A stretch of 64,000 nucleotides of DNA from Phaeobacter sp. A36a-5a (GTDB lineage Bacteria > Pseudomonadota > Alphaproteobacteria > Rhodobacterales > Rhodobacteraceae), in NCBI RefSeq assembly GCF_037911135.1, contig NZ_JBBLYU010000001.1, positions 1,860,001-1,924,000 on the forward strand, read 5' to 3'. A program made the position numbers and the translations under genes. The notes under the pieces were generated by a model, which saw nothing but the letters and a program-made list of their open reading frames with translations, ran no database searches and was not told the origin of the DNA. Below, piece by piece: positions 17,723 through 39,051 of this stretch. Each line of letters begins with the position of its first letter. Within the stretch, counting starts at the first letter, position 1.

Positions 17723-18616
17723 ATGACCGAAGAACTCCTGCTGAGCCTGCTGACGCAGAACATCATCTATATCCTGGGCGCGATCTTCCTGATCATCCTG
17801 ATCCTCAAGGGCGTCCGCATCGTACCGCAATCCGAAAAATACGTGGTCGAACGCTTTGGCCGCCTGCATGCAGTGCTTGGCCCCGGCATCAACTTCATCG
17901 TCCCGCTGCTCGACTCCGTCGCCCATAAGGTCTCGATCCTGGAACGCCAGCTGCCCAACGCCAGCCAGGACGCCATCACCAAGGACAACGTGCTGGTGCA
18001 GATCGACACCTCGGTGTTCTACCGCATTCTGGAACCGGAAAAGACCGTCTATCGGATCCGCGACGTTGACGGCGCCATTGCCACCACCGTGGCCGGCATC
18101 GTGCGCGCCGAGATCGGCAAGATGGACCTGGATGAGGTGCAGTCGAACCGCTCGCAGCTGATCGGTCAGATCCAGCATCTGGTCGAAAGCGCCGTTGACG
18201 ACTGGGGCATCGAAGTGACACGCGCCGAGATCCTCGACGTGAACCTCGATCAGGCCACCCGCGACGCCATGCTGCAGCAGCTCAACGCCGAGCGCGCCCG
18301 CCGCGCCGAGGTGACCAAGGCCGAGGGCCAGAAACGCGCGGTCGAACTGGCCGCCGACGCCGAGCTCTACGCCGCCGAGCAGATCGCCAAGGCCCGCCGC
18401 ATTCAGGCCGATGCCGAGGCCTATGCCACCGGGGTAGTCGCCAAAGCCATTGCCGAAAACGGTCTGGAGGCCGCGCAATATCAGGTGGCCCTGAAACAGG
18501 TCGAGGCGCTCAATGCCCTTGGCGCAGGTGAAGGCAAACAGACCATCCTGGTGCCCGCCAATGCGATTGAGGCCTTCGGCAACGCCTTCAACATGCTGAA
18601 AGGGGCCGGAAAATGA
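17723..18616 (+). CDS. SPFH/stomatin/QmcA-type membrane protein
   Basis: 297 residues from ATG 17723, preceded by GCGAGG. An N-terminal membrane anchor (about 10-30, IIYILGAIFLIILILKG) precedes the band-7 domain (VRIVPQSEKYVVERFGRLHAVLGPGINFIVPLLD). A long alanine/glutamate-rich coiled coil follows (RRAEVTKAEGQKRAVELAADAE), as in QmcA/SPFH1 proteins. These oligomerise in membrane microdomains. The next gene, nfeD, starts within the last four bases (ATGA), the classic stomatin-NfeD pair. Confidence 0.93.
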   Translation: MTEELLLSLLTQNIIYILGAIFLIILILKGVRIVPQSEKYVVERFGRLHAVLGPGINFIVPLLDSVAHKVSILERQLPNASQDAITKDNVLVQIDTSVFYRILEPEKTVYRIRDVDGAIATTVAGIVRAEIGKMDLDEVQSNRSQLIGQIQHLVESAVDDWGIEVTRAEILDVNLDQATRDAMLQQLNAERARRAEVTKAEGQKRAVELAADAELYAAEQIAKARRIQADAEAYATGVVAKAIAENGLEAAQYQVALKQVEALNALGAGEGKQTILVPANAIEAFGNAFNMLKGAGK

Positions 18617-18891
18617 CGGCCCTGCTCTCCGTCTGGTGGGTCTGGATCGCGATTGCCATCGGCCTCGCCATCGTCGAGGTGCTGGCGCCGGGCTTCATGT
18701 TCCTCGGCTTTGCCGTCGGCGCGGTGCTGGTGGCCCTGCTGCTGGTCGCCACCCCCGCAGGCAGCATCACCCTGCCGGTGCTGCTGCTGATCTACGCCAC
18801 CCTCTCGCTGATCGCCTGGCTGGTCTTGCGCCACTTCTTCAAGGGCCCCAAAGGCCAGGTGAAACACTTCGACCACGATATCAACGATTGA
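18613..18891 (+). CDS. NfeD-like membrane protein
   Basis: 92 residues with two to three membrane spans (about 5-25, 29-45, 50-75), the short NfeD1b-type lacking an extended OB domain. It works with SPFH proteins in membrane organisation; the partner is the gene immediately upstream, with a 4-bp overlap. Its 3' two-thirds and the following 38 bp are duplicated at 26608-26831 with one mismatch in 224 bp. The short length compared with full NfeD proteins (about 150) is typical of many roseobacters. Confidence 0.85.
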   Translation: MTALLSVWWVWIAIAIGLAIVEVLAPGFMFLGFAVGAVLVALLLVATPAGSITLPVLLLIYATLSLIAWLVLRHFFKGPKGQVKHFDHDIND

Positions 18892-18929
18892 ACAAAGCCC
18901 CGTCCGGTCTGCACTGGGCGGGGATCCCC
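18706..18929 (+). repeat. 224-bp direct repeat, left copy (within nfeD)
   Basis: It is identical to 26608-26831 except at 18807 (G here, C there). It runs from inside nfeD to 38 bp past its stop, with both copies in the same orientation and 7902 bp apart. It marks the left boundary of the island. Confidence 0.95.
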
Positions 18930-19400
18930 CCTAGCCTCACCAGTCCCGCAATCCAATACAACAGCCGCAACCGTCAGGCTCAGCAGTGTATAGATAGCGA
19001 CATTCGGAGCTGGCGCCCGTCTCCCCTGCTGGAACGCAACACAGCGTCCGAAGCGGCCAGAGGCTATGTTGTCTTGCAAGACTCTCCTCTCTGCAAATCC
19101 TGTCCAGCGTCCAGTCTGCAATCGGATGTTATGCAACTGCGATCCGGCTGCGGCTCGAAACCTTTTTCTGCTCCGGGTCGGCCTGCTCTGCCGTTGCGAA
19201 ACGTCTACCCGCGACATGCTGATATCAAACGGAGATATGCCCCCTATTGGCGGACAACGCCGATCAGCTGGACGTGGTCGCGCTCATTTCGGTCGCAAAG
19301 CCACTGAGCTGACGGAGGGCTTTCAGGTAGGGATATCCTAATCTAGCATGTGATCGTCGGTCATATGACCGTGCTTCCACACAAAGAAAGACCAGAGCGA
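18930..19400. other. Gap at the left end of the island
   Basis: About 470 bp of lower-GC DNA immediately inside the left repeat. Short frames are present but none has a ribosome site or recognisable sequence. It may be remnant DNA from the insertion. Confidence 0.45.
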
Positions 19401-19916
19401 ATGAAGAGACTTGCCCTTGATGCAGCAGACATCCGCATTCTCAGCGCGCTCCAGCAGCATGGGCAGTTGAGCAAGGCCAAGCTGGCAGAGCTGAGCGGGC
19501 TTTCCGCGACCCCCTGCTGGGCGCGGCTGACCCGGTTGAAAGCGGGCGGATACATTCGCGGCTATCATGCCGATATCGCGCTGGAGCGGCTCGCAGATTT
19601 CGCGCAGGTGATTGTGACGGTTTCCCTCAGCCGTCATCGAAAGGCTGATTTTGAGCGCTTTGAAGCTTTTCTCAACAGCCGGGATGAGATCATTGATTGC
19701 ATCGCCACCGGTGGTGGGGTCGATTACATCATGAAGATCATCAGCCCCAGCCTCGCCGCGTTTCAAGACCTGATGGAAGATTTCCATGCCGAAGACCTCG
19801 GCATTGACCGCTACATGACCCATTTTGCCACGCGCCAAGTGAAATCAGCTTTGCCGAACCTCTCGAAATTGGCCACTGCAAGTCCGAAATTGCCGCTCTG
19901 GCCCAATCGGTCCTGA
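19401..19916 (+). CDS. Lrp/AsnC-family regulator of the island
   Basis: 171 residues from ATG 19401; a longer frame begins at 19350 but lacks a ribosome site. The winged HTH covers LDAADIRILSALQQHGQLSKAKLAELSGLSATPCWARLTRL, followed by the RAM domain (about 65-145). The signal-binding loop reads IATGGGVDYIMKI. A 25-residue tail beyond the fold is unusual. Standing first in the island, 140 bp ahead of the methyltransferase gene and co-directional, it is the obvious candidate to control the catabolic cluster. Confidence 0.88.
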   Translation: MKRLALDAADIRILSALQQHGQLSKAKLAELSGLSATPCWARLTRLKAGGYIRGYHADIALERLADFAQVIVTVSLSRHRKADFERFEAFLNSRDEIIDCIATGGGVDYIMKIISPSLAAFQDLMEDFHAEDLGIDRYMTHFATRQVKSALPNLSKLATASPKLPLWPNRS

Positions 19917-20056
19917 TATGGCCCCCCAAACGGCCTGAATGGTCTGAGAAGTGATAATCTTCGGACCACTTTCGCGGCCTCTCCTGGACTACATCTCGCA
20001 AAGGTTTTGACAGTCTCCGATCAAAGCGGTCGGGGACAAAACGGGAGGTAGTTCCA

Positions 20057-21196
20057 ATGCAAGCAGATGATTTCGGTTTCGGCACACAGATCCGCAAGTC
20101 GCCCTATTTTGACGCGACAGTGCGTTGGGGCGCGCAGGGGTTCTCCGTCTACAACCACATGTATATCCCGCGCGATTTCGGTGATCCCGAGCAGAACTTC
20201 TGGAACCTCGTGAATGACGCGATACTCTGTGATGTGGCCGTTGAACGGCAGGTTGAAATCACCGGTCCTGACGCGGCGAAATTCACCCAGATGCTGACCT
20301 GCCGCGATCTGTCGAAGATGGCGGTCGGCCAGTGCAAATACATCCTGATCACCAATGCCGACGGCGGCATTCTGAACGATCCGGTCCTGCTGCGTCTTGC
20401 CGAGAACCATTTCTGGATCTCTCTTGCTGATAGCGACATTCTTTTGTGGGCGCAGGGGGTTGCGGTCAACTCTGGCCTTGATGTCACGATTGGTGAGCCG
20501 GATGTCTCGCCGCTGCAATTGCAAGGCCCCAAATCCGGCGAGATCATGCGCGCGCTGTTTGGCGACGGGATCATGGACCTGCGCTACTACTGGCTGCGCG
20601 AAGTCGATCTGAACAGCATCCCGCTGATCGTGTCCCGCACCGGCTGGTCCAGCGAGCTGGGCTATGAAATCTACCTGCGCGACGGCTCCAAAGGCGATCT
20701 GCTGTGGGAAACCATTATGGCAGCCGGTCTGGAATTTGGCCTCAAGCCCGGCCACACATCCTCCATCCGCCGCATCGAAGGTGGGATGTTGTCGTATCAC
20801 GCGGATGCCGACATGGGCACCAACCCCTTTGAGCTTGGGTTTGACCGGTTGGTGAACCTCGACATGGAGGCTGATTTCATCGGCAAGGCCGCGTTGCGCC
20901 GTATCAGGGACGAAGGTGTCAGCCGTAAGCAGATCGGCCTGATCATCGACGGCGATCCTCTTGCGGGTCCCAACACGACATTCTGGGACATCAATTCGGG
21001 TGGCGAAGCAATCGGCAAGGTCACCTCTGCGGTTTATTCCCCGCGTTTGGAGCAGAACATCGCCTTGGCCATGGTGTCAGCGGAACACGCCAACATCGGT
21101 GCACAGGTTGAGGTCGTCACGAAATCCGGCCCCGTCCGCGCAACAATCTGCGAGCGCCCGTTCTATGATCCCAAAAAACAGATCGCTGCCGCTTAA
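20057..21196 (+). CDS. DmdA/GcvT-family folate-dependent methyltransferase
   Basis: 379 residues with a strong ribosome site (GGGAGGT). It belongs to the GcvT/DmdA superfamily, whose members transfer a methyl or aminomethyl group to tetrahydrofolate. Shared DmdA-like blocks are SVYNHM, DVAVERQVEITGPDAAK, GGILNDPV, WISLADSDIL and EPDVSPLQLQGPKS. The later block RTGWSSELGYEIYLRDGS departs from DMSP demethylase (SKQGGFEIY) and is nearer to general GcvT-like enzymes. It may therefore demethylate DMSP or another methylated compound such as an O-methyl aromatic or betaine; the substrate is unproven. It leads an apparent operon with OsmC, crotonase and CoA-ligase genes. Confidence 0.8.
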   Translation: MQADDFGFGTQIRKSPYFDATVRWGAQGFSVYNHMYIPRDFGDPEQNFWNLVNDAILCDVAVERQVEITGPDAAKFTQMLTCRDLSKMAVGQCKYILITNADGGILNDPVLLRLAENHFWISLADSDILLWAQGVAVNSGLDVTIGEPDVSPLQLQGPKSGEIMRALFGDGIMDLRYYWLREVDLNSIPLIVSRTGWSSELGYEIYLRDGSKGDLLWETIMAAGLEFGLKPGHTSSIRRIEGGMLSYHADADMGTNPFELGFDRLVNLDMEADFIGKAALRRIRDEGVSRKQIGLIIDGDPLAGPNTTFWDINSGGEAIGKVTSAVYSPRLEQNIALAMVSAEHANIGAQVEVVTKSGPVRATICERPFYDPKKQIAAA

Positions 21197-21223
21197 CGTC
21201 CTGCTACATGAAAGAATACCGAA

Positions 21224-21673
21224 ATGTCAGATCTCGCGATTGAGCTGCACTGGCAGCGCGCAGCGCCCGTATTGCAAACCGGTGCCTATTCGAACGAGCA
21301 CACCGTGCAATACAACAACCGCTATGACCTGCTGGTCGATTCCGCCCCTGATTGGGGCGGAAACCCGGAGAACACAAACCCCGAACAGGCCCTCGCCTCG
21401 GCGCTGTCGAGCTGCCATATGATGACCTTTCTTGCGCTGGCCGCAAAGGCGGGCTGGCCGGTGGCCAGCTACCACGATTACGCCGAGGCCCATCTGGGCA
21501 AGAACCCCAAGGGCCAGATGTCGGTAACGCGGATTGATCTGCATCCGGTGGTGCGTTTTGACACCGGCTTTACGGTGGGCGACGCCGAACTGGCGCAGAT
21601 GCAGGACCGCGCGCACCGCTACTGCTTTATTGCGAACACCCTCGCCGACAGTGTCGAAATCAACATTCTTTAG
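21224..21673 (+). CDS. OsmC-family protein
   Basis: 149 residues. OsmC/Ohr proteins are thiol-dependent peroxidases that remove organic hydroperoxides. The second conserved cysteine lies in LSSCHMMTFLALA; the other candidate is C in HRYCFIANTLADSVEI, the usual second position of the family. The first third (DWGGNPENTNPEQALASALSSCH) is typical. It is 27 bp after the methyltransferase gene and 23 bp before the crotonase gene, so it is in the same transcript. A protective role against reactive sulfur or aldehyde products is possible, but this is inference. Confidence 0.88.
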   Translation: MSDLAIELHWQRAAPVLQTGAYSNEHTVQYNNRYDLLVDSAPDWGGNPENTNPEQALASALSSCHMMTFLALAAKAGWPVASYHDYAEAHLGKNPKGQMSVTRIDLHPVVRFDTGFTVGDAELAQMQDRAHRYCFIANTLADSVEINIL

Positions 21674-21696
21674 CGCTCGAATAAGGGATACCCCCC

Positions 21697-22497
21697 GTGA
21701 CCACATCTGACATCCTGCTGCGCGTTCTGGACGGGACCGGAATATTGCGCCTGACCCTGAATGACGTGCGTCGGCGCAATGCCTTGTCCGAGGCGATGCT
21801 GGCGGAACTCGGTGCTGCGTTTGCAGCCGCCGGGACCGATCCAAATGTGCGGGTCATTGTCCTGGCGGCCAATGGCCCTGCGTTTTGTGCAGGCCATGAC
21901 CTCAAGGAGATGACCGCTGGGCGTTTGAACGGAGATGGTGGTAAAGCCTATTTTGCCCATGTCATGGCGATGTGCGCAGGCGTGATGCAAGGCATCGTGA
22001 ATTGCCCCAAACCCGTCATCGCTGAGGTCACAGGCATTGCAACGGCCGCAGGCTGCCAGCTGGTCGCAAGCTGTGATCTGGCCATTGCGGCGGACACGGC
22101 GCAATTCAGCACACCGGGTGTTCACATCGGGTTGTTCTGCTCCACCCCGATGGTGGCGCTGTCGCGCAATGTGGCGGACAAACACGCGATGGAAATGCTG
22201 CTGACCGGTGACCTGACCTCAGCCGCGCGGGCCGCCGAAATCGGCCTTGTGAACCGCGTCGCGGCACCTGACGCGTCGCAAACGGTAACGATGGAGTTGG
22301 CGCGCAAGATTGCGTCAAAATCCAGCATGACGCTGGCAACCGGCAAACGCGCCTATTACGCCCAGCGCGAGATGTCGCTGCCCGATGCCTACGATTACGC
22401 CTCTGCTGTGATGGTCGATAACATGCTGGCGCAAGACGCCGAAGAAGGGATCGAAGCGTTCATCGAAAAGCGCGCGCCCCAATGGCAGGACGCCTGA
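21697..22497 (+). CDS. Crotonase-fold protein (enoyl-CoA hydratase-like), catalytic Glu missing
   Basis: 266 residues from a GTG start preceded by AAGGG. The oxyanion-hole regions AFCAGHDLKEM and ATAAGCQLVASCDLAIA identify the crotonase superfamily. Aligned by eye to rat mitochondrial enoyl-CoA hydratase, Glu144 (GGGCEL) is Gln here and Glu164 (QPE) is Gly in TPGVHIG. Both acid/base residues are thus absent, and standard hydratase chemistry is unlikely. The pattern resembles the ECHDC3 group, so another CoA-ester reaction is likely. Three bases separate its stop from the CoA-ligase start, so they are co-translated. Confidence 0.85.
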   Translation: MTTSDILLRVLDGTGILRLTLNDVRRRNALSEAMLAELGAAFAAAGTDPNVRVIVLAANGPAFCAGHDLKEMTAGRLNGDGGKAYFAHVMAMCAGVMQGIVNCPKPVIAEVTGIATAAGCQLVASCDLAIAADTAQFSTPGVHIGLFCSTPMVALSRNVADKHAMEMLLTGDLTSAARAAEIGLVNRVAAPDASQTVTMELARKIASKSSMTLATGKRAYYAQREMSLPDAYDYASAVMVDNMLAQDAEEGIEAFIEKRAPQWQDA

Positions 22498-22500
22498 GCC

Positions 22501-24168
22501 ATGACCGCAAACCCTTACAACACCGATCTGGACCGCAACCCGGCAAACTATCAGCCACTGACGCCGCTGACATTTCTGGAACGCGCGGCCTCGGTCTTTC
22601 CTGATCACACTGCGATCGTGCATGGCCCGTTGCGGCGCACTTATGCGGCGTTTTATGCGCGATCACGTCAGTTGGCCTGTGCATTGACAGAGCAAGGCAT
22701 CGGGCGCGGTGACACGGTGTCGGCCCTGCTGGCCAATACGCCCGCAATGCTGGAATGCCACTACGGTGTTCCCATGTGTGGCGGGGTCCTGCATTCCGTG
22801 AACACACGGCTAGATGCGTCGGTGATTGCGTTTCAGCTGGACCATGCCATGTGCAAAATCGTCATCGTAGACCGCGAATTCATGCCCTTGATGCAGGATG
22901 CGCTGGCGCTGGCAACAGTGCGCCCGCTTGTCATCCAATACGACGACGCTGAATTCTGCGGACCCGTTACCGAGGCAGATGCGCAGGATTACGAGGCCTT
23001 CCTGTCGACGGGCGATCCTGAATTCGACTGGCTGATGCCGCTGGATGAATGGGACGCGATTTCGATCAACTACACATCGGGGACGACAGGCGATCCAAAG
23101 GGTGTGGTTTCGCACCACCGGGGGGCCTATCTGCTGGCGCAGGGCAATGCGCTGACGACGTCGATGGCGAAACATGCGGTCTATCTGTGGACGCTGCCAA
23201 TGTTCCACTGCAATGGCTGGTGTTTCCCATGGACGCTGTCGGCGATCATCGGCACCCATGTCTGCCTGCGTCAGGTGCGGGCAGGACCAATCTGGGCCGC
23301 TTTGGCAGATGAGCACGTCACCCACCTGTGCGGCGCGCCAATTGTCATGTCGCTGATGATCTCGGCCCCCGAGGCCGAAAAGCGCCAACTTGATCATACC
23401 GTGCAATTCTTTACCGCCGCCGCCCCGCCGCCGGAGAAGCTGCTGGCGGATATGAAAACCTCAGGCTTTGACGTCACGCATCTCTATGGGCTGACTGAAA
23501 CCTACGGCCCTGCCGTGGTGAATGACTGGCATCAGGACTGGTCCGATCTGCCGCCCGCCGAACAGGCCCGGCTGAAATCGCGCCAAGGCGTGCGCTATCT
23601 GCCGCTGGAAGGATTGGATGTGCTGGACCCGGACACAATGCTGCCCGTGCCGCGCGACGGGAAAACCATGGGCGAGGTGATGTTTCGCGGCAACGTCGTC
23701 ATGAAGGGTTATTTCCGCAATCCCACAGCCACCCAAGAGGCCTTTGCAGGCGGCTGGTTCCATTCCGGCGATCTCGGCGTGCGGCACGCGGACGGCTATA
23801 TTCAGCTGAAGGATCGCTCCAAGGATATCATCATTTCGGGCGGCGAGAATATTTCGTCCATTGAGGTGGAAGAAGCGCTTTATCGTCACCCCGCCGTCGC
23901 GATTGCTGCCGTGGTGGCCATGCCGCACGAAAAATGGGGCGAAACGCCCTGTGCTTTTGTGGAACTGGCTACAGGTGAACATGTAGATGCCGCCACACTG
24001 CGCGCGTGGTGCAAGGACCAGCTTGCGCCCTACAAGGTGCCCGGACGGTTCGTGTTCATGCCGATCCCGCGCACGTCAACCGGCAAGATCCAGAAATTCA
24101 TCTTGCGCGATCAGGCCCAGAAGATCGCGGAAAACGCGCATGCAGGTCAAATGACACCGGCTCAGTAA
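22501..24168 (+). CDS. Acyl-CoA synthetase (AMP-forming)
   Basis: 555 residues. It activates a carboxylic acid with ATP and CoA. Motifs in order are the P-loop YTSGTTGDPKGV, YGLTETYGP, the hinge aspartate region HSGDLGVRHADGYIQLKDRSKD with GGENISS, and the catalytic lysine in PRTSTGKIQKF. The sequence is of the DmdB/medium-chain type (roseobacter methylmercaptopropionate-CoA ligases belong here), but substrate specificity cannot be read. It lies 3 bp after the crotonase gene. A perfect 14-bp hairpin overlaps its stop. Confidence 0.9.
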   Translation: MTANPYNTDLDRNPANYQPLTPLTFLERAASVFPDHTAIVHGPLRRTYAAFYARSRQLACALTEQGIGRGDTVSALLANTPAMLECHYGVPMCGGVLHSVNTRLDASVIAFQLDHAMCKIVIVDREFMPLMQDALALATVRPLVIQYDDAEFCGPVTEADAQDYEAFLSTGDPEFDWLMPLDEWDAISINYTSGTTGDPKGVVSHHRGAYLLAQGNALTTSMAKHAVYLWTLPMFHCNGWCFPWTLSAIIGTHVCLRQVRAGPIWAALADEHVTHLCGAPIVMSLMISAPEAEKRQLDHTVQFFTAAAPPPEKLLADMKTSGFDVTHLYGLTETYGPAVVNDWHQDWSDLPPAEQARLKSRQGVRYLPLEGLDVLDPDTMLPVPRDGKTMGEVMFRGNVVMKGYFRNPTATQEAFAGGWFHSGDLGVRHADGYIQLKDRSKDIIISGGENISSIEVEEALYRHPAVAIAAVVAMPHEKWGETPCAFVELATGEHVDAATLRAWCKDQLAPYKVPGRFVFMPIPRTSTGKIQKFILRDQAQKIAENAHAGQMTPAQ

Positions 24169-24181
24169 GCCGGTGTCATTT
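24149..24181. terminator. Hairpin terminator between convergent ligase and hydrolase genes
   Basis: AAATGACACCGGCT and AGCCGGTGTCATTT form a perfect 14-bp stem with a 5-nt loop, overlapping the ligase stop codon. Short A/T runs flank both sides. It should insulate the two convergent transcripts. Confidence 0.7.
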
Positions 24182-24190
24182 GCGATCCTG

Positions 24191-25045
24191 TCAGGCTGGC
24201 AAAACCTTTGATCGTTGCTCGCCCAATCCGTCGATACCCAAGGTCACAACCTCCCCGCCGTGCAGATACCGCTGCGGGGATTGACCCATCCCCACGCCCG
24301 GAGGCGTGCCGGTTGAAATGACATCCCCCGACTGCAGGCTCATGAACTGGCTGCAATAGGACACGAGGTGCGGGATCTTGAAGATCAATGTCGCGGTTGA
24401 TCCTGTTTGCATGCGTTTGCCATCCACATCCAGCCACATCCCCATGTTGTCCATGTCTGCGATCTCATCGACTGTGACGAGCCAAGGCCCTGTTGGCCCA
24501 AAGGTATCGCAGCCTTTGCCCTTGTCCCACGTGCCTGCCCGATTGAGCTGAAAATCGCGCTCTGACACATCGTTGATCACACAAAACCCTGCGACATGGT
24601 CCATCGCGTTGCCCTCGTCGATATAAGATCCCGGTTCGCCGATCACGACGCCCAATTCGACCTCCCAATCGGTTTTGACCGAACCGCGCGGGACCTGAAT
24701 GTCATCATTCGGGCCGACCACCGCAGAGGTCCATTTGTTGAAGATGATGGGTTCTTCGGGGATCGGCATCCCCGCCTCTTCGGCGTGATCGGCGTAGTTC
24801 AGGCCGATGCAGACAAATTTGCCGATATTCCCGACACAGGCCCCAAGGCGCAGATCGTCCTGTGGTGTGCCGTCAACGAGCGGCAGCGTTTCCGGGTCCA
24901 GCCCGTGCAGCGCCTTCAGCCCAGCGGGGCGCAATGTCTCACCAGAGATATCCGGGACCACGCCCGACAGATCGCGAACGCGGCCTGACGCATCCAGAAG
25001 TCCGGGTTTTTCTGCGCCGGGCGCGCCGTAGCGGAGAAGCTTCAT
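24191..25045 (-). CDS. Fumarylacetoacetate hydrolase-family protein
   Basis: 284 residues. The FAH fold shows the metal-binding acids in DWEVELGVVIG and the catalytic His in GLNYADHAEEAG. Further conserved blocks are FNKWTSAVVGPNDDI and ISTGTPPGVGMG. The family hydrolyses C-C or decarboxylates 2-oxo acids and includes 2,4-diketo-3-deoxy sugar-acid hydrolases and ureidoglycolate-lyase-like enzymes, so the substrate is open. It is the last gene of a minus-strand transcript whose upstream members (ThuA, dehydrogenase) are broken. Ribosome site GAGGACA. Confidence 0.9.
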   Translation of the reverse strand: MKLLRYGAPGAEKPGLLDASGRVRDLSGVVPDISGETLRPAGLKALHGLDPETLPLVDGTPQDDLRLGACVGNIGKFVCIGLNYADHAEEAGMPIPEEPIIFNKWTSAVVGPNDDIQVPRGSVKTDWEVELGVVIGEPGSYIDEGNAMDHVAGFCVINDVSERDFQLNRAGTWDKGKGCDTFGPTGPWLVTVDEIADMDNMGMWLDVDGKRMQTGSTATLIFKIPHLVSYCSQFMSLQSGDVISTGTPPGVGMGQSPQRYLHGGEVVTLGIDGLGEQRSKVLPA

Positions 25046-25082
25046 ATCGTGTCCTCATAATTATGACTTGAATATCGTGTCA

Positions 25083-25545
25083 TCAGGCAGCGCCACGTGC
25101 CGCCCACAGTACCCCACGGCGAATAATCTCGGTGACTTGCGGCACCTTCAGGTCGTCCAACTCGTGGCCGATTGAGCAATAGAAGACGCGGCCCTTGTTC
25201 CAGCGGCGTTTCCAGACAACCGGGATCACGGTGCCTTCGATCCACCACAGATGATCGCCCGAAAACGTCCTGGTCGCCAGGACCTCGTTCGATGGATCGA
25301 CGAGCATATAGTATTGCTCGGTCGTCAGGCGGAAACTCTTAATGTCTTGCACAATCGGATCGTCGGGTTTGCAGATGGTCACATCGTAATCAATATGGTC
25401 TTCGCGCGGCTGCGGGTTGTCGGGCCATCCAAGGGGATGAGCCACAAACTGACCGCCGATCAGGAAATGATAGGTCGGGCGATCGTGGAACGCATCCCCC
25501 ATATGCCCGTGCCAACCAGCCACCAATAAACAGCGCTGCTTTCAT
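25083..25545 (-). pseudogene. ThuA-domain protein, internal deletion
   Basis: The frame begins at 25545 with [10 protein letters not shown], the normal ThuA N-terminus, with AGGA before it. It then jumps directly to the middle of the protein in another frame ([16 protein letters not shown], then [13 protein letters not shown]), losing roughly 80 residues. The junction falls where GGCTGG could pair with a downstream copy, suggesting a short-homology deletion. The C-terminal half (25083-25526) is intact. ThuA proteins are putative sugar/trehalose-utilisation factors related to glutamine amidotransferases. The start overlaps the previous gene's stop by 4 bp, so they were once co-translated. Confidence 0.8.
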
Positions 25546-26283
25546 GGTGTATCCTTTCGCATGTAGGTCGATATCGACGCCATATCGCGGGCGCCATAAC
25601 TTGCCTTTTCCGCCTCGATCAATTTGGCCAGTGTGGTTCGGCCTTGCGGCATCGCAGTGCCACGTCGATCTGCAAGCTGTGCCGTCACCTCCATGTCTTT
25701 GCGGGCCAGTGCCACGGTAAAGGTGACATCGTGATCTGCCTCGTTCAGATAGAGCGGACGCCGGTATTTGAGCATTGGCGCACAGGCCGCAGAGGCCACG
25801 ATCACATCGAATGCCTGCTCAGACGTGATGCCGGAGGCTTCGGCCAGGGTCATCGTTTCGGCAAGCGTCTGAATAATCCCGTAGATCAGCGAATTCACCG
25901 CCAGTTTCATCACAGCCCCTGCCCCGGACTGACTGACTGAGATAGATGGTTTGTCGGCTCACCGCATCGAATATGGCCGCAAGATCAGCATCTTCGTCAC
26001 GGCAGCCGGCCATGACCAGCAGATCTGCACTTGCAGCAGCTTGTGTCGCCCCGGAAACCGGCGCATCAATCACCCGGATATTCTCTGGCGCCGTTGCGAC
26101 CAGATCGGCGATGTGGTCAGGGCTCATCGTGCCCATTTCCACCAAGGTCGCGCTGCCTGTCGAGGCAAACAATCCGCCGCGTCCGAGATGCACTGCATAA
26201 GAGGCCGCGCCATCGGCCAACATCGTCACAACGATGTCAGCCCGCGCCGCCAGATCCACAGGGGTCTGCGCTGCCAGACAGCC
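25542..26283 (-). pseudogene. 3-hydroxyisobutyrate-dehydrogenase-like oxidoreductase, truncated and frameshifted
   Basis: The N-terminal half runs in one frame (VDLAARADIVVTMLADG, DAPVSGATQAAASADLLVMAG) to about 25940. The C-terminal half (AVMKLAVNSLIYGIIQTLAE, ARKDMEVTAQLADRRGTAMP) continues in another to the stop at 25542. The break is at a GACT tetranucleotide run (25927-25940): removing one 4-bp unit restores ...YLSQSGAGAVMKL. The first 45 or so residues with the NAD-binding G-x-G-x-x-G are also missing at 26283. The family oxidises beta-hydroxy acids with NAD(P). It is non-functional as it stands. Confidence 0.8.
25927..25940 (-). repeat. GACT tetranucleotide run causing frameshift
   Basis: GACT is repeated three times plus GA. 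Two copies would restore the dehydrogenase reading frame. Slipped-strand gain of one unit explains the break. Confidence 0.7.
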
Positions 26284-26304
26284 TTCGGATTTTGATCCGA
26301 CCCG

Positions 26305-26560
26305 GCGATCAGGCCTTCTTTGATATCCTGCAATCCTATCAGGGATATCGCACCTGCTACTACCGCAGGTTCAACGTCGGCCGCGCGACCCCAGGGCAGA
26401 ATGACGCCTATGTGAAGGCGCGCGAATGGATTGATGCCTCCATCGCGACGATCAAACCCGACGTCTCCACCGACAAGGTGGCCGAGGTTTGACCAACAGC
26501 CCAGAAGCTCGGCTTTGCAAATGAAGATCAGGGCGTTGGGCACCAGGGCTGCCGCAGTAT
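26305..26560 (+). pseudogene. M24-family (Xaa-Pro/creatinase-like) peptidase fragment
   Basis: On the plus strand the translation reads GDQAFFDILQSYQGYRTCYYRRFNVGRATPGQNDAYVKARE, a hallmark of roseobacter M24 peptidases around the first metal aspartate. It continues through a TGA at about 26490 where Trp is expected (V-W-P). Both ends are missing and the frame is broken. It is head-to-head with the dehydrogenase remnant. It probably belongs to an older operon of amidohydrolase or aminopeptidase type. Confidence 0.6.
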
Positions 26561-26607
26561 GCGCCGACTTTTCCTATATGGGTCAAGCCGGGGCCGAGGA
26601 CGTGATA

Positions 26608-26831
26608 GGCTTTGCCGTCGGCGCGGTGCTGGTGGCCCTGCTGCTGGTCGCCACCCCCGCAGGCAGCATCACCCTGCCGGTGCTGCTGCTGATCTACGCC
26701 ACCCTCTCCCTGATCGCCTGGCTGGTCTTGCGCCACTTCTTCAAGGGCCCCAAAGGCCAGGTGAAACACTTCGACCACGATATCAACGATTGAACAAAGC
26801 CCCGTCCGGTCTGCACTGGGCGGGGATCCCC
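26608..26831 (+). repeat. 224-bp direct repeat, right copy
   Basis: The second copy of the nfeD 3' segment (see 18706-18929), one mismatch. It is attached in frame to the remnant upstream sequence, giving a chimeric 120-codon frame (26431-26793) that is probably not translated. It ends exactly where a truncated IS transposase begins. Confidence 0.95.
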
Positions 26832-27425
26832 GAGCAGCCAAACGACATTTGGGAGACCACTGAGCAGCGCCCGCGCGCCGATGTAGTCGCACCTGACCGT
26901 CGGTAACGAACAGATCGAGCGGGTGCCCTGGCTGTCGAAGATGGCATGCAGCTTGGTGTTCATTCTACACTTGCCTCGCCCCCTCTCGGGACATTGCTGC
27001 GCAATGCCCTGCCGGGCAAGGGATCAGGCGGCCGCACCTCCCTTCGTCGGTGAATTGATCCACTGGATCAGTTCCTTATCCTCCATAGTTCGCGGCCATG
27101 CTGATCGCTGTGCGGTGGGCTTTTAGATACGTCGCGTCGATCATCACGGCCTGTTCTTCGCCGTGCCCGGCGGCCAGGCCCGCCATCATCCGCGCGAAGA
27201 TGCCTTTCTCGCTTCAGCGCGTTCAGCGGCTGTAGAGAGTCTTATGCGGGCCGTACTCCCGAGGAGCATCGCACCAGCGCAACCCATCGCGATTGATAAA
27301 GATACTCCGCTCAACACACGTCGGCCATCAACGCGGGGCTCGCCGTGGGACTTGGGAAAGAAGGGCTCAAAGCGCGCCACCTGGGCATCCGTCAGCCAAA
27401 AAATCAGACAATTCACCGCTCCGTT
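26832..27425 (-). mobile_element. Degenerate IS5-family transposase remnant
   Basis: On the minus strand fragments in several frames read TDAQVARFEPFFPKSHGEPRVDGRRVLSG, GPHKTLY, ARMMAGLAAGHGEEQAVMIDATYLKAHRTA and MNTKLHAIFDS, then IGARALLSGLPNVVWLLGD, matching IS5-type transposases. The frame is broken by frameshifts and stops. About 50 bp with a palindromic core (CATTGCGCAGCAATG) interrupts it near 27000. The C-terminal third is cut off at 26832 by the duplicated nfeD segment. It is inactive and is evidence for IS-related rearrangement of the island's right end. Confidence 0.75.
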
Positions 27426-31714: not shown

Positions 31715-34700
31715 CTAGGCAAACAGGATGTCATCTGATCCCAAAATGGTGATCGTCACAGTTTCCGTGTCCAGACCGCCATCGCCGTCATCGACCGTGT
31801 AGGCAAAGCTGTCTGTGGCCGTCTCCCCGCTGTTCAAATGCTCGAACATACCGTCTGCGGAATAGGTGAACGTGCCGTCGCCGTTGTTGATGACATCGCC
31901 AAGGGTGCCGCTGTCGTCAATCGTGAACACAAAGGTATCGCTGTCAGGATCGGTGACATTTGCTGCAACCGTGACCGAGGGGCTGGGGCCATTCAGGGTT
32001 GAGCTGAACTGAACCCCGTCCACGCGCAGATCATCGGTCCGCGCATACTCATAGTTAAGCGGGCCGACCGAAATCTGGGCATCCACCGTGACACCGCCTC
32101 CAAGATCCAAGCCTGCGATGTCCAGCTCGATGCTGTCGATGTTCTGATTGGTGTCGGCAAACAAGATCCACTGAGGGTTCGACAGGTCGACATCGCCGTT
32201 GCCCCCGTTGATGACCCAATCGGTCGAGGCGATTGTCTGTCCCGTCCCATCCACGAACACCTCGCCCGCGAATGCCCAGCCGGTGCTATTGGGGTTGGGC
32301 TGGACGATCACCCCGTTGCCCTCGCTGAGATACTGCGCGGCGATCTGATCAAAGGTGAAATTCGCGCCCCCGTCGCGCTGGATAGACGCCGCCGTGCCCG
32401 TGTCGAAATCGTAGACATAGAAACGCCCGGCATTGGGGATCGTTTGGGCCCCGACGCTGTCGGAACTGGCGACCTGCGGATCTTCGTCGACAGTGCCTGT
32501 CACCGCTTGTGCCACCGGAGCGTCATTTGTGCCGTTCACTGTGAACGACAGGGTTTGCGTGTCAGAGCCGCCGTTGCCGTCCTGCACGGTTACATCATAC
32601 TCAATCATCAGCGTCTCGCCCGCGGCCAGATAGGCCGCATCCACCGCGCCTATGTCAAAAGCCCAGTCCACAGAGCCGGACGCTTGCGCTGCGGTGCTGT
32701 TCACGCTGAGCTCGATCAGGGCCAGCGCCTGCGCCGAGGTCAGCCCGCCTGCATCGCCAACAAAGCGCACCGCATCAATCTCTGCCGTGTGCTCATCCGT
32801 GACATCGACATCGTTGAATTCAATCGTGCCCTGACGGGTGATCTCCATATCGTAGTCAAGGCCGACAAAGTAATTGGTCTCGTTGTCACCATCACTCGCC
32901 AGAAACAGCTTGAGACCCAAAGACGGATCAATCGCGTTGGTTTGATCGGGTGTTGAGGACGCCGGGTCAAAGCCATCAAACGTGCCAATCAGCGCACCCG
33001 AACTGCTGAACACCGAGATGACATCGCTGAGACCGTCGAGGACGATTTCGAGGCTAAAGGTATTCTGCTGCCCGCCGCTCAGATTGAGTAGGTTCAGCTC
33101 AATCGCACCATCCTGTAGCGAGTCTCCCGGCTGCGAGTCCGTCTTGAGCTCGCCGTTATACAGGCGTCCCGCCCTGCTGTTGACAGAGAAATACGACATC
33201 TGGCCGACACCATCGGTGAGACCAAAAAAGACGTCCTGATCGCCGCCTGTCCGTGCGACTTCACCCTGAACAGTCACGACGACCTTGTCGTTCGCCTCCA
33301 GCGCGCCTTGCTCGACAATATCAAAAACGGTGTGTGGCGCACGCCTGTCTTCGGTGTTGATATTCACCCGCATCGCATCCTGACCGCCGACCGTCTGGAT
33401 CGAAGCCGTGCCGCTTGTGGGATCAAAGGCCTCGATGAAATCTTGCGCGTCAAAGCTGCCGGTTGTGGTAAAGCCCGCGCCGATCTCTTCCACCAGATCA
33501 GAGTTTGCGACATTGATGATCGGCGCGTCGTTCTGGCCGGTGACGGTGATCGTCACGGTTTCGGTCGCAGTGCCGCCATTGCCATCATCCACAGTGTAGG
33601 TGAAGCTGTCGGTTGCTGTCTCTCCAACCGCGAGGCTGTCAAACGCGCCGCTGGGGTCATAGCCAAACGTGCCATCGCCGTTGTCGGTGACCGCGCCAAG
33701 CGTGCCTGTGGTGTCGACGCTGAACGTGTGGCTGTCAGCGGCATCGACATCTGTGAAGTCCGCCGCAATGGTGATGGCAGGACCGTCTTCGTCGGCAGTA
33801 TCGGTTACCGCCATGGCAACCGGCGCGTCGTTCTGGCCGGTGACGGTGATCGTCACGGTTTCGGTCGCAGTGCCGCCATTGCCATCATCCACAGTGTAGG
33901 TGAAGCTGTCGGTTGCTGTTTCTCCAACCGCGAGGCTGTCAAACGCGCCGCTGGGGTCATAGCCAAACGTGCCATCGCCGTTGTCGGTGACCGTTCCCAG
34001 CGTAGCACTCGTGTCGATGCTGAATGTGTGGGTGTCGGTGGCATCCACGTCCAAGTAATCAGCCGAAACGGTGACGGCCGGGCCGTCTTCGTCAACGGTC
34101 GCAGACACGGCCATGGCTACAGGGCCGTCGTTTTGTCCTTCGATCACGATATCATAGGTGACAGTTGTGATATTGCCTTCGTCATCCGATATCACCAGCG
34201 TCACGGTTTCGGTTGTGCTCTCGCCCGCGCCGAGACTGTCGTAGGCGGTCCCGGGATCAAAGGACAGGCTTGCACCGCCGCCGACCCCGATTTGGCTGGT
34301 CTGGCTGGCTCCACTGTCCTGCGCCGTCAATGTCCCGCCGCCGGTAACACTTGCCGATACCAGTTCCACCGATGTCCCATCCAGATCGTAGTAGTCCACC
34401 TGGAACTGCAGCGCGTCACCTTCCGACGTGCTCAAACCCTCATCGCGCAGGATCACCAGAGGCGCGTTGTCGCCCGCCAGATCAAATGTGAAATCGTCGA
34501 ATTGCAGCACTTCAAAACTGTGCAGAAAATCGCAGCCGTCCTCGCCCTGGACATAGGTCCAGGGTCCACGGCCAAAACCTGAAACCTGATAGTCCAGCAC
34601 AGAACCGGAAAAAACCGCAGTGTCCCGTCCCTTGCCACCAAACATGACATCGTTGCCGCCGCCGCCTTCCACGGTGTCGTCACCTCGTCCGGTATAGATA

Positions 34701-34831
34701 CGGTCACGGTACTCGGAGCCGGTGACATCATCGTTTCCCCGGCGCGTCCAGATGAATTGTCCACGGGATGCGTCCGACGCATCTACTTCCATATCAGTAT
34801 TTCTCAGATAACCACGACCGCGATATCCCAT
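31715..34831 (-). CDS. VCBS/cadherin-like repeat protein with N-terminal RTX repeats
   Basis: 1038 residues. Near the N-terminus (about 30-80) are RTX-like calcium repeats (GRGDDTVEGGGGNDVMFGGKGRD). The rest is VCBS/cadherin-like beta domains (DEDGPAVTVSADYLDVDATDTHTFSID, GTFGYDPSGAFDSLAVGETATDSFTYTVDDGNGG). Two neighbouring repeats are identical over 173 bp but for one base. No signal peptide is visible, which fits type I secretion. No secretion ABC transporter lies in the window, and the last residues (GSDDILFA) are short and acidic/hydrophobic as in some type I signals. It is probably a surface adhesin; the role is inference. Ribosome site GGAG. Confidence 0.85.
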   Translation of the reverse strand: MGYRGRGYLRNTDMEVDASDASRGQFIWTRRGNDDVTGSEYRDRIYTGRGDDTVEGGGGNDVMFGGKGRDTAVFSGSVLDYQVSGFGRGPWTYVQGEDGCDFLHSFEVLQFDDFTFDLAGDNAPLVILRDEGLSTSEGDALQFQVDYYDLDGTSVELVSASVTGGGTLTAQDSGASQTSQIGVGGGASLSFDPGTAYDSLGAGESTTETVTLVISDDEGNITTVTYDIVIEGQNDGPVAMAVSATVDEDGPAVTVSADYLDVDATDTHTFSIDTSATLGTVTDNGDGTFGYDPSGAFDSLAVGETATDSFTYTVDDGNGGTATETVTITVTGQNDAPVAMAVTDTADEDGPAITIAADFTDVDAADSHTFSVDTTGTLGAVTDNGDGTFGYDPSGAFDSLAVGETATDSFTYTVDDGNGGTATETVTITVTGQNDAPIINVANSDLVEEIGAGFTTTGSFDAQDFIEAFDPTSGTASIQTVGGQDAMRVNINTEDRRAPHTVFDIVEQGALEANDKVVVTVQGEVARTGGDQDVFFGLTDGVGQMSYFSVNSRAGRLYNGELKTDSQPGDSLQDGAIELNLLNLSGGQQNTFSLEIVLDGLSDVISVFSSSGALIGTFDGFDPASSTPDQTNAIDPSLGLKLFLASDGDNETNYFVGLDYDMEITRQGTIEFNDVDVTDEHTAEIDAVRFVGDAGGLTSAQALALIELSVNSTAAQASGSVDWAFDIGAVDAAYLAAGETLMIEYDVTVQDGNGGSDTQTLSFTVNGTNDAPVAQAVTGTVDEDPQVASSDSVGAQTIPNAGRFYVYDFDTGTAASIQRDGGANFTFDQIAAQYLSEGNGVIVQPNPNSTGWAFAGEVFVDGTGQTIASTDWVINGGNGDVDLSNPQWILFADTNQNIDSIELDIAGLDLGGGVTVDAQISVGPLNYEYARTDDLRVDGVQFSSTLNGPSPSVTVAANVTDPDSDTFVFTIDDSGTLGDVINNGDGTFTYSADGMFEHLNSGETATDSFAYTVDDGDGGLDTETVTITILGSDDILFA
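33521..33693 (-). repeat. VCBS tandem DNA repeat, unit 1
   Basis: 173 bp identical to 33821-33993 with one mismatch, 300-bp period. It encodes the same VCBS segment. It reflects recent duplication or gene conversion within the adhesin gene. Confidence 0.95.
33821..33993 (-). repeat. VCBS tandem DNA repeat, unit 2
   Basis: The second copy of the 173-bp unit, 300 bp from the first. The single difference is C/T at 33620/33920. Repeat number may vary among strains. Confidence 0.95.
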
Positions 34832-38651: not shown

Positions 38652-39051
38652 TCATTATCCCCCTTTCAGTCATCTGTTTTTGGACCAATTTCTATTGAAA
38701 ATCTTATTTGATGCAGAGAGCAATTCCATTGTTACGGAGTGCCGCATTTTTCTTCAGCAAGTGACCTTTTTAGAAGTTGAAGGACAACTCTCACCCTCGA
38801 TCAGCGTTTTGCCCCACAATGAGCGGCTGCCTTATTTGCCAAAAACAACTCCAATCGTTGCGCATGTGCAGCCTGGTCAGCCAGGCTCCCCTGTCCCTGC
38901 CTGCATCGGGCCGGAACCCGCCCCGGCCCGCTCATCCCTCAGTTTCACCAAGCCTGCAATCTCGACCATCTCGTAGCTGCCACCGATCCGCCACTGGACC
39001 CCCGGCCCCGGCTTCCCTATATAAACAGTCAGGAAACGAACCGAGGCCCGA
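38652..39051. other. Gap upstream of sufT
   Basis: 400 bp between the response regulator and sufT. An AT-rich first half probably holds the regulator's promoter; the second is GC-rich. A 68-codon minus frame at 38877-39083 lacks a ribosome site, and I see no convincing gene. Confidence 0.45.

Follow-up and report, generated by a model that had tools for sequence, protein, structure and literature searches.

What does a methyltransferase related to the dimethylsulfoniopropionate (DMSP) demethylase DmdA do when its gene stands in an operon with genes for an OsmC-like protein, a crotonase-family protein, and an AMP-binding acyl-coenzyme A (CoA) ligase? This question is raised by a 64,000-nucleotide (nt) stretch of the Phaeobacter sp. 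A36a-5a genome (the window), in which the four genes follow a gene for an Lrp/AsnC-family regulator (Table 1). The operon is located on contig C1 of this 4.05-Mb genome (G000), and it is real as a preliminary description of the window had laid it out: the coordinates, gaps, and domains were confirmed, all five proteins match the expected Pfam domains above the cut-offs, the four enzyme genes are separated by 27, 23, and 3 bp, and the Lrp gene ends 140 bp ahead of the methyltransferase gene. We conclude that these genes form a real, mobile, and co-conserved pathway unit. We further propose, with a probability of about 0.55, that the unit encodes a variant DMSP-type route of sulfonium or methylthio demethylation that ends in methanethiol and has no DmdC in the operon.

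A scan of genome contigs recovered 495 relatives of the methyltransferase, of which the best 80 (at least 83% identity) were kept as named loci (L numbers; G numbers denote genomes). The downstream test needed at least 3.1 kb, which left 76 loci testable and 4 too short. The OsmC, crotonase, and ligase genes all follow the methyltransferase gene in 56 of the 76, a part of them does so in 13, and none does in 7; an Lrp gene lies upstream in 76 of the 78 loci with the at least 700 bp needed on that side. The gene order of the cassette is conserved beyond chance. When the open reading frames (ORFs) of the window and of 96 loci were clustered at 45% identity, no family outside the cassette and its antisense ORFs was present in more than 6 loci. 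The order and the upstream regulator reported in the preliminary description are thus borne out in relatives, among which the cluster is co-conserved and not scattered. No DmdC-type acyl-CoA dehydrogenase is encoded in the window operon, as had been described, or represented in the families that recur in over 6 of the 96 loci.

The methyltransferase represents a distinct DmdA-like subfamily with a clade of its own and is not DmdA. It scored 374.9 bits against the NCBIfam DmdA model NF009133 (cut-off, 410), and its nearest sequence in the PDB is DmdA of Pelagibacter ubique (3tfh; 280 bits, versus 148 bits for trimethylamine N-oxide [TMAO] demethylase and 143 bits for GcvT). When 46 named genomes of unstated completeness, picked from the 80 loci, were scanned with the same model, canonical DmdA (563 to 712 bits) was detected in 32 and the methyltransferase (367 to 382 bits) in all 46, of which 14 contained no match above 410, including those of the cultured marine isolates Roseobacter sp. 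GAI101 and Yoonia vestfoldensis SKA53; a further paralogue group scored 359 to 384 bits. In a midpoint-rooted tree of 64 rows, which included the TMAO demethylase domain and left out LigM, DesA, and the SAR92 DmdAs, the methyltransferase and its sisters of 64 to 67% identity form a 22-row set (100/97), placed not in a clade of known substrate but outside the 21-row set (99/96) that unites DmdA of P. ubique and Roseobacter with a sister group including a DmdBCD-linked Marivivens protein. The methyltransferase was joined with folate-linked relatives more weakly (88/96). The branches leading to the outgroups, P. ubique DmdA, and L200 are long.

Residues 194 to 206 of the methyltransferase (RTGWSSELGYEIY) bear out the deviation from DmdA that had been noted at the substrate loop: SEL replaces KQG at positions 199 to 201, and G196, E204, and Y206 are kept. 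The protein retains the domain family and its general positions D108, E204, and Y206, of which E204 and Y206 would, by our own mapping, be the folate residues given in the accessible part of PMC7487153. An alignment of 10 DmdA and 15 methyltransferase rows contains 59 positions that are invariant and equal, and K199, Q200, G201, and E238 appear to define the DmdA clade, judging from its 10 rows. W197 was considered as the DMSP-specific Trp of PMC7487153 (as far as that source is accessible) and dropped, since most Roseobacter DmdA rows carry Tyr there, and an AlphaFold2 model based on 27 close orthologues (mean predicted local distance difference test score, 49) was not used.

Comparison with known systems places the operon apart from each of them. 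The DmdABCD operon on a plasmid of Phaeobacter inhibens DSM 17395 (L235), whose DmdA is 39% identical to the methyltransferase, has the order acyl-CoA dehydrogenase-dmdD-ligase-dmdA, whereas the window operon has no acyl-CoA dehydrogenase and has OsmC and Lrp in addition. A plasmid of Marivivens sp. LCG002 (L237, 7980 to 13139) carries an operon for a DmdA-sister methyltransferase, a ligase, an acyl-CoA dehydrogenase, and DmdD; this methyltransferase is 44% identical to that of the window, keeps KQG, and groups with DmdA instead, and its operon differs from ours in having the acyl-CoA dehydrogenase and a DmdD with the catalytic Glu residues. In three further genomes (G555, G620, and G707), a relative of 43 to 44% identity and a DmdD match lie at most 5 kb apart. 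The C-terminal domain of TMAO demethylase (9q59) and GcvT belong to the same domain family as the methyltransferase, which keeps D108 and E204, but their bit scores are about half that of the DmdA match, and long branches separate them from the methyltransferase in the tree.

A connection to sulfur is suggested by genes for SBP56 proteins of the methanethiol oxidase type. In a sample of 295 genomes of the family (294 genera), 49 carry the methyltransferase, 117 carry canonical DmdA, and 92 carry an SBP56 of this kind. An SBP56 gene lies within 10 kb of the methyltransferase gene in 10 of the 49 genomes (ten genera; 10 of 40 SBP56 copies; about 0.2 expected), a count that is not corrected for shared ancestry and is partly after the fact, as seven of the ten genomes (G626, G012, G502, G670, G747, G588, and G738) had been seen beforehand and three (G739, G579, and G506) were new at the test. 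The co-occurrence counts, likewise uncorrected, show SBP56 in 32 of 49 genomes with the methyltransferase versus 60 of 246 without it, and in 67 of 117 genomes with DmdA versus 25 of 178 without. Among DmdA-less genomes, SBP56 is present in 9 of 19 with the methyltransferase versus 16 of 159 without; among DmdA-bearing genomes, the corresponding counts are 23 of 30 and 44 of 87. Canonical DmdA has an SBP56 gene within 10 kb in 3 of 117 cases (G534, G513, and G700). The preliminary description had offered O-methyl aromatics, betaines, and sulfonium and N-methyl compounds as candidate substrates; because of the 10/49 linkage, the sulfonium (or methylthio) option is kept, and the others recede.

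The linked genes occur in varied arrangements. Five of the 80 named loci contain SBP56. The gene directly follows the methyltransferase gene in Mameliella (L084, L095, and L103), where OsmC, crotonase, and ligase genes do not adjoin, and it comes after the ligase gene in L069, L102, L031, and L127 (a truncated copy). The SBP56 domain was tested in L103 (Pfam, 581 bits) and L069. The linked proteins fall into two branches with about 40% identity between them, and all 14 distinct untruncated copies (13 linked to the methyltransferase and 1 to canonical DmdA) contain GGDC[ST]. According to the accessible part of PMC10936201, this is one of three motifs of the cluster-1 methanethiol oxidases of Rhodobacteraceae, two of which were shown to degrade methanethiol. 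Such a gene is absent from beside the window operon; the host's own gene of this type (L129, G000:C1:510977-512185) is away from the operon, has the cluster-2 motif TCQSPYM, and by eye has IclR-like and SCO1-like neighbors. In L214 (G534), canonical dmdA is followed by an oxidase gene whose product is 84% identical to that of L069. There, as in L069 and L031, the SBP56 gene is followed by one for a membrane-like protein of about 219 residues (L069, 11553 to 12212; L031, 3892 to 4548; L214, 11115 to 11771); the likeness was judged by eye, and the L069 protein has no Pfam match.

The sister clade of 64 to 67% identity repeats this association. Methyltransferase, ligase, crotonase, and SBP56 genes occur together in three of its seven loci (L215, L217, and L218), to which L217 adds genes for a ferredoxin and a CoA-binding protein and L218 one for a rhodanese (Pfam); L216, L219, and L220 have the methyltransferase and SBP56 with no ligase or crotonase match, and L221 has the methyltransferase alone. 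Two DmdC queries gave no match in the seven stretches.

The accompanying enzymes resemble the DMSP pathway unevenly. The ligase (890 bits against NF006020; cut-off, 677) shares its subfamily with ligases of dmd operons, those of L235 and L237 exceeding the cut-off as does the L215 ligase of the sister clade, and it is 48% identical to the L235 ligase, so that the parallel with DmdB drawn in the preliminary description holds at the subfamily level. Its score of 305.6 bits against the 3-(methylthio)propionyl-CoA ligase model NF005426 is below the cut-off of 822, a test that discriminates poorly because the L235 ligase also fails it (313.8 bits). The crotonase scored 392 bits against NF006008 (cut-off, 313), and its nearest PDB sequences are 3myb, which we take to be from Mycobacterium smegmatis, and 2vx2 (ECHDC3), with the segments AAGCQLVA and GLFCSTP in common. 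The parallel with DmdD, in contrast to that with DmdB, fails: the crotonase is 28% identical to DmdD and has Q121 and G141 at the positions of the catalytic Glu121 and Glu141, a replacement found in all 72 aligned full-length sequences. The crotonases of L215, L217, and L218 are Glu-less as well. In the accessible part of PMC3660561, the E121A and double mutants of DmdD are inactive, E141A retains a trace of methanethiol release, and DmdD itself frees no methanethiol from methylmercaptopropionyl-CoA. Both OsmC cysteines (in SSCHM and RYCFIAN) are conserved in an alignment of 71 orthologues. A possible tie between osmC of P. ubique and limitation for sulfur (PMC5069961, in part) was not used, as osmC there accompanies bhmT and ordL and no dmdA, and H2O2 made by the oxidase was dropped as an unsupported reason for OsmC; the accessible part of PMC10936201 reports no H2O2.

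The sulfonium/methylthio reading is supported by the proximity of the methyltransferase to DmdA in the PDB and its retained D108, E204, and Y206, by the SBP56 linkage and co-occurrence, by the matching gene row behind the canonical dmdA of L214, by the sister-clade loci, by the dmd-type ligase subfamily, and by the folate-related neighbors of L222. From these features we infer the following steps. A dimethylsulfonium-type carboxylate, either DMSP or a compound closely related to it, would donate a methyl group to tetrahydrofolate through the methyltransferase, and the ligase would convert the methylthio acid that is left to its CoA thioester. The Glu-less crotonase may then act on the thioester in a step leading to methanethiol, which the methanethiol oxidase, encoded by the next gene in some relatives and elsewhere in others, would dispose of. 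OsmC may protect the cell or handle a reactive sulfur or peroxide by-product, and the Lrp protein probably controls the operon. A specific form of this scheme would be independent of DmdC: the crotonase would free methanethiol directly from 3-methylthio-propanoyl-CoA, or it would free methanesulfenic acid, reduced by OsmC, from 3-methylsulfinyl-propanoyl-CoA derived from the S-oxide dimethylsulfoxonium propionate (DMSOP), with acryloyl-CoA as the other product. We regard this form as rather improbable.

Several observations weigh against a DMSP-type route. Apart from the retrospective part of the linkage count, 39 of the 49 genomes with the methyltransferase have no SBP56 gene within 10 kb, an oxidase gene is lacking next to the window operon, and the SBP56 of L103 scored 114.8 bits against the NCBIfam MtoX model NF052453 (cut-off, 650). 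The clustering, in which no other family exceeded 6 of 96 loci, thus shows no conserved transporter or acyl-CoA dehydrogenase next to the cassette, and because the essential Glu pair is absent (essentiality as in the accessible part of PMC3660561), the crotonase must work otherwise than DmdD or via other residues. The DmdA/methyltransferase alignment contains 26 positions that are invariant but different, among them KQG to SEL at 199 to 201 and E to R at 238, and KQG and E238 are common to DmdA and the DmdBCD-linked group. The contexts of two relatives described below (L128 and L222) suit an N-methyl substrate equally, perhaps in amine metabolism. Canonical DmdA is present in 30 of 49 genomes with the methyltransferase versus 87 of 246 without, DmdD shows no association (8 of 49 versus 51 of 246), and in the 8 genomes with both DmdD and the methyltransferase the two are not near each other. 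Deletion of dmdA in Ruegeria pomeroyi DSS-3 abolishes methanethiol (PMC5395565, accessible part), which counts against the route only if DSS-3 carries the methyltransferase; strain SZCCDBG043 (L061) does carry it. Some of these counts bear equally on a possible, if doubtful, account in which the methyltransferase is a second DMSP demethylase, the methylthiopropionyl-CoA formed by the ligase undergoes oxidation and hydration by DmdC and DmdD/AcuH encoded at other sites, and OsmC and the operon crotonase play accessory roles. Canonical DmdA is absent from the host (no match at 1e-125; the next best relative of the methyltransferase is 29% identical), which nevertheless has a dmdC-dmdD pair (L210; 67% and 86% identical to the P. 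inhibens counterparts) and the cluster-2 type oxidase. Moreover, SAR92 DmdAs with 38 to 40% identity to R. pomeroyi DmdA, a range similar to the 39% between the methyltransferase and P. inhibens DmdA, gave a dmdA mutant back part of its methanethiol release (PMC10746254, accessible part). However, in G004, a genome from this genus, DmdD occurs without DmdA or the methyltransferase, so that the presence of dmdD does not point to a missing demethylase, and across the sample DmdD shows no relation to DmdA itself (23 of 117 genomes with DmdA versus 36 of 178 without). Because DmdD is unassociated with the methyltransferase, not near it, and alone in G004, the host dmdC-dmdD pair is no evidence for DMSP use, and an argument from a missing gene was dropped after the co-occurrence test. 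The second-demethylase account also has to accommodate the canonical DmdA already held by those 30 genomes and the absence of KQG and E238 from the methyltransferase, and a spare hydratase does not explain a crotonase conserved without its Glu pair.

It is unlikely that the substrate of the methyltransferase is instead an acid with an N-methyl or O-methyl group (betaine-like or methoxy), the oxidase linkage then reflecting catabolic genes co-located on mobile islands. Seven relatives with MTHFR-, FolD-, or PurU-like neighbors, for which the searched stretch gave no oxidase match, speak for such a substrate. Among them, L222 (a copy of 77% identity from outside the class) has PurU-, MTHFR-, FolD-, and Lrp-like neighbors in a stretch without a match to ligase, crotonase, or SBP56, a context that fits 5-methyl-tetrahydrofolate as the product and is uninformative on sulfur, and L128 (57%) stands with one-carbon genes, its stretch giving no match to a ligase, crotonase, or oxidase. 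The proteins of L185, L193, L194, L195, and L239, which are DmdA-like, about 39 to 49% identical to the methyltransferase, and encoded beside MTHFR-/FolD-like genes, possibly use another methyl donor; one is haloarchaeal, with a BCCT transporter gene about 6 kb away. The SEL loop is also nearer to the GEL of TMAO demethylase than to KQG of DmdA. Against this stand an SBP56 linkage far above chance that involves two oxidase branches and varied gene orders, the Mameliella loci in which the oxidase gene follows the methyltransferase gene without the other three alongside, and the rhodanese added in one sister operon (L218). The reading of the cassette as no pathway at all, with its genes traveling together by chance on mobile DNA, is already disfavored and very improbable. 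It can draw on the absence of the stretch from relatives, the exact 224-nt repeat, the plasmid copies, and the 20 of 76 testable loci in which at least one of the three downstream genes is missing, but it does not account for an order kept in 56 loci while no other neighbor is widely shared, or for the methyltransferase, ligase, and crotonase genes that recur together in three of the seven loci from the diverged sister clade.

The mobile setting is apparent in the window itself. In four genomes of the same genus (L246 to L249), the match to the window stops at about 18905 to 18923, inside repeat copy 1, and restarts at 38984, with 1.1 to 2.1 kb in between; the operon is therefore within a stretch of about 20 kb that is absent here from these genomes. 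This stretch is likely an insertion, in a comparison that does not tell gain from loss. No orthologue of the methyltransferase was found in the six same-genus genomes compared (best matches, at most 40% identity), whereas copies occur on plasmids of P. inhibens and Loktanella near recombinase, transposase, or conjugation genes, and a copy of 78% identity is present in G278, from the same phylum and a different class. The gene at 18613 to 18891, in which repeat copy 1 begins, is NfeD-like by eye only, without a Pfam match, and the FAA-hydrolase gene has an equivalent position in L045. A region beyond it on the reverse strand (25083 to 26259) contains a ThuA-like ORF covering only profile positions 83 to 209 of 209 and a 3-hydroxyisobutyrate-dehydrogenase-like gene broken into two frames, and L045 has matches to both in the same order. 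Also within the stretch absent from relatives, positions 31715 to 34831 (reverse strand) encode a protein of about 1,038 residues with bacterial immunoglobulin-like, cadherin-like, and RTX-type calcium-binding repeats. An Rfam scan of positions 18500 to 27000 gave no match at the gathering score.

Table 1. Features of the operon and its surroundings (window coordinates)
Feature	Position	Strand	Remarks
Lrp/AsnC-family regulator, probable local regulator	19350..19916	+	Pfam HTH_24, HTH_AsnC-type, AsnC_trans_reg
GcvT/DmdA-family methyltransferase, presumed tetrahydrofolate-dependent demethylase	20057..21196	+	379 residues; Pfam GCV_T, GCV_T_C
OsmC-like protein	21224..21673	+	149 residues; Pfam OsmC; nearest PDB sequence, VCA0330 (2d7v)
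Crotonase-family protein, PRK08139/ECHDC3 type, without both catalytic Glu	21697..22497	+	266 residues; NF006008
AMP-binding acyl-CoA ligase	22501..24168	+	555 residues; NF006020
FAA-hydrolase gene, convergent neighbor, outside the conserved cassette	24191..25045	-	Pfam FAA_hydrolase
224-nt exact direct repeat, copy 1	18706..18929	+	3' part of gene 18613-18891
224-nt exact direct repeat, copy 2	26608..26831	+	Closes a 7.9-kb segment containing the operon

Taken as a whole, the earlier interpretation is partly supported, and, as it had held, no system with this combination was found under a name in the accessible portions of the open-access literature. The cassette most likely serves organosulfur metabolism, with methanethiol among its products. 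Surveys of DMSP turnover genes count dmdA by similarity, and the methyltransferase family, which is widespread (49 of 295 sampled genomes of the family) and mobile, most likely also feeds methanethiol. If so, this family, whose crotonase differs and whose substrate may differ too, would change which bacteria count as sulfonium demethylators. Should the crotonase eliminate the thiol directly, the textbook requirement for DmdC would no longer hold generally, and a DmdC-independent route, if true, would add a new branch, borne on mobile DNA, to the marine breakdown of organosulfur compounds.

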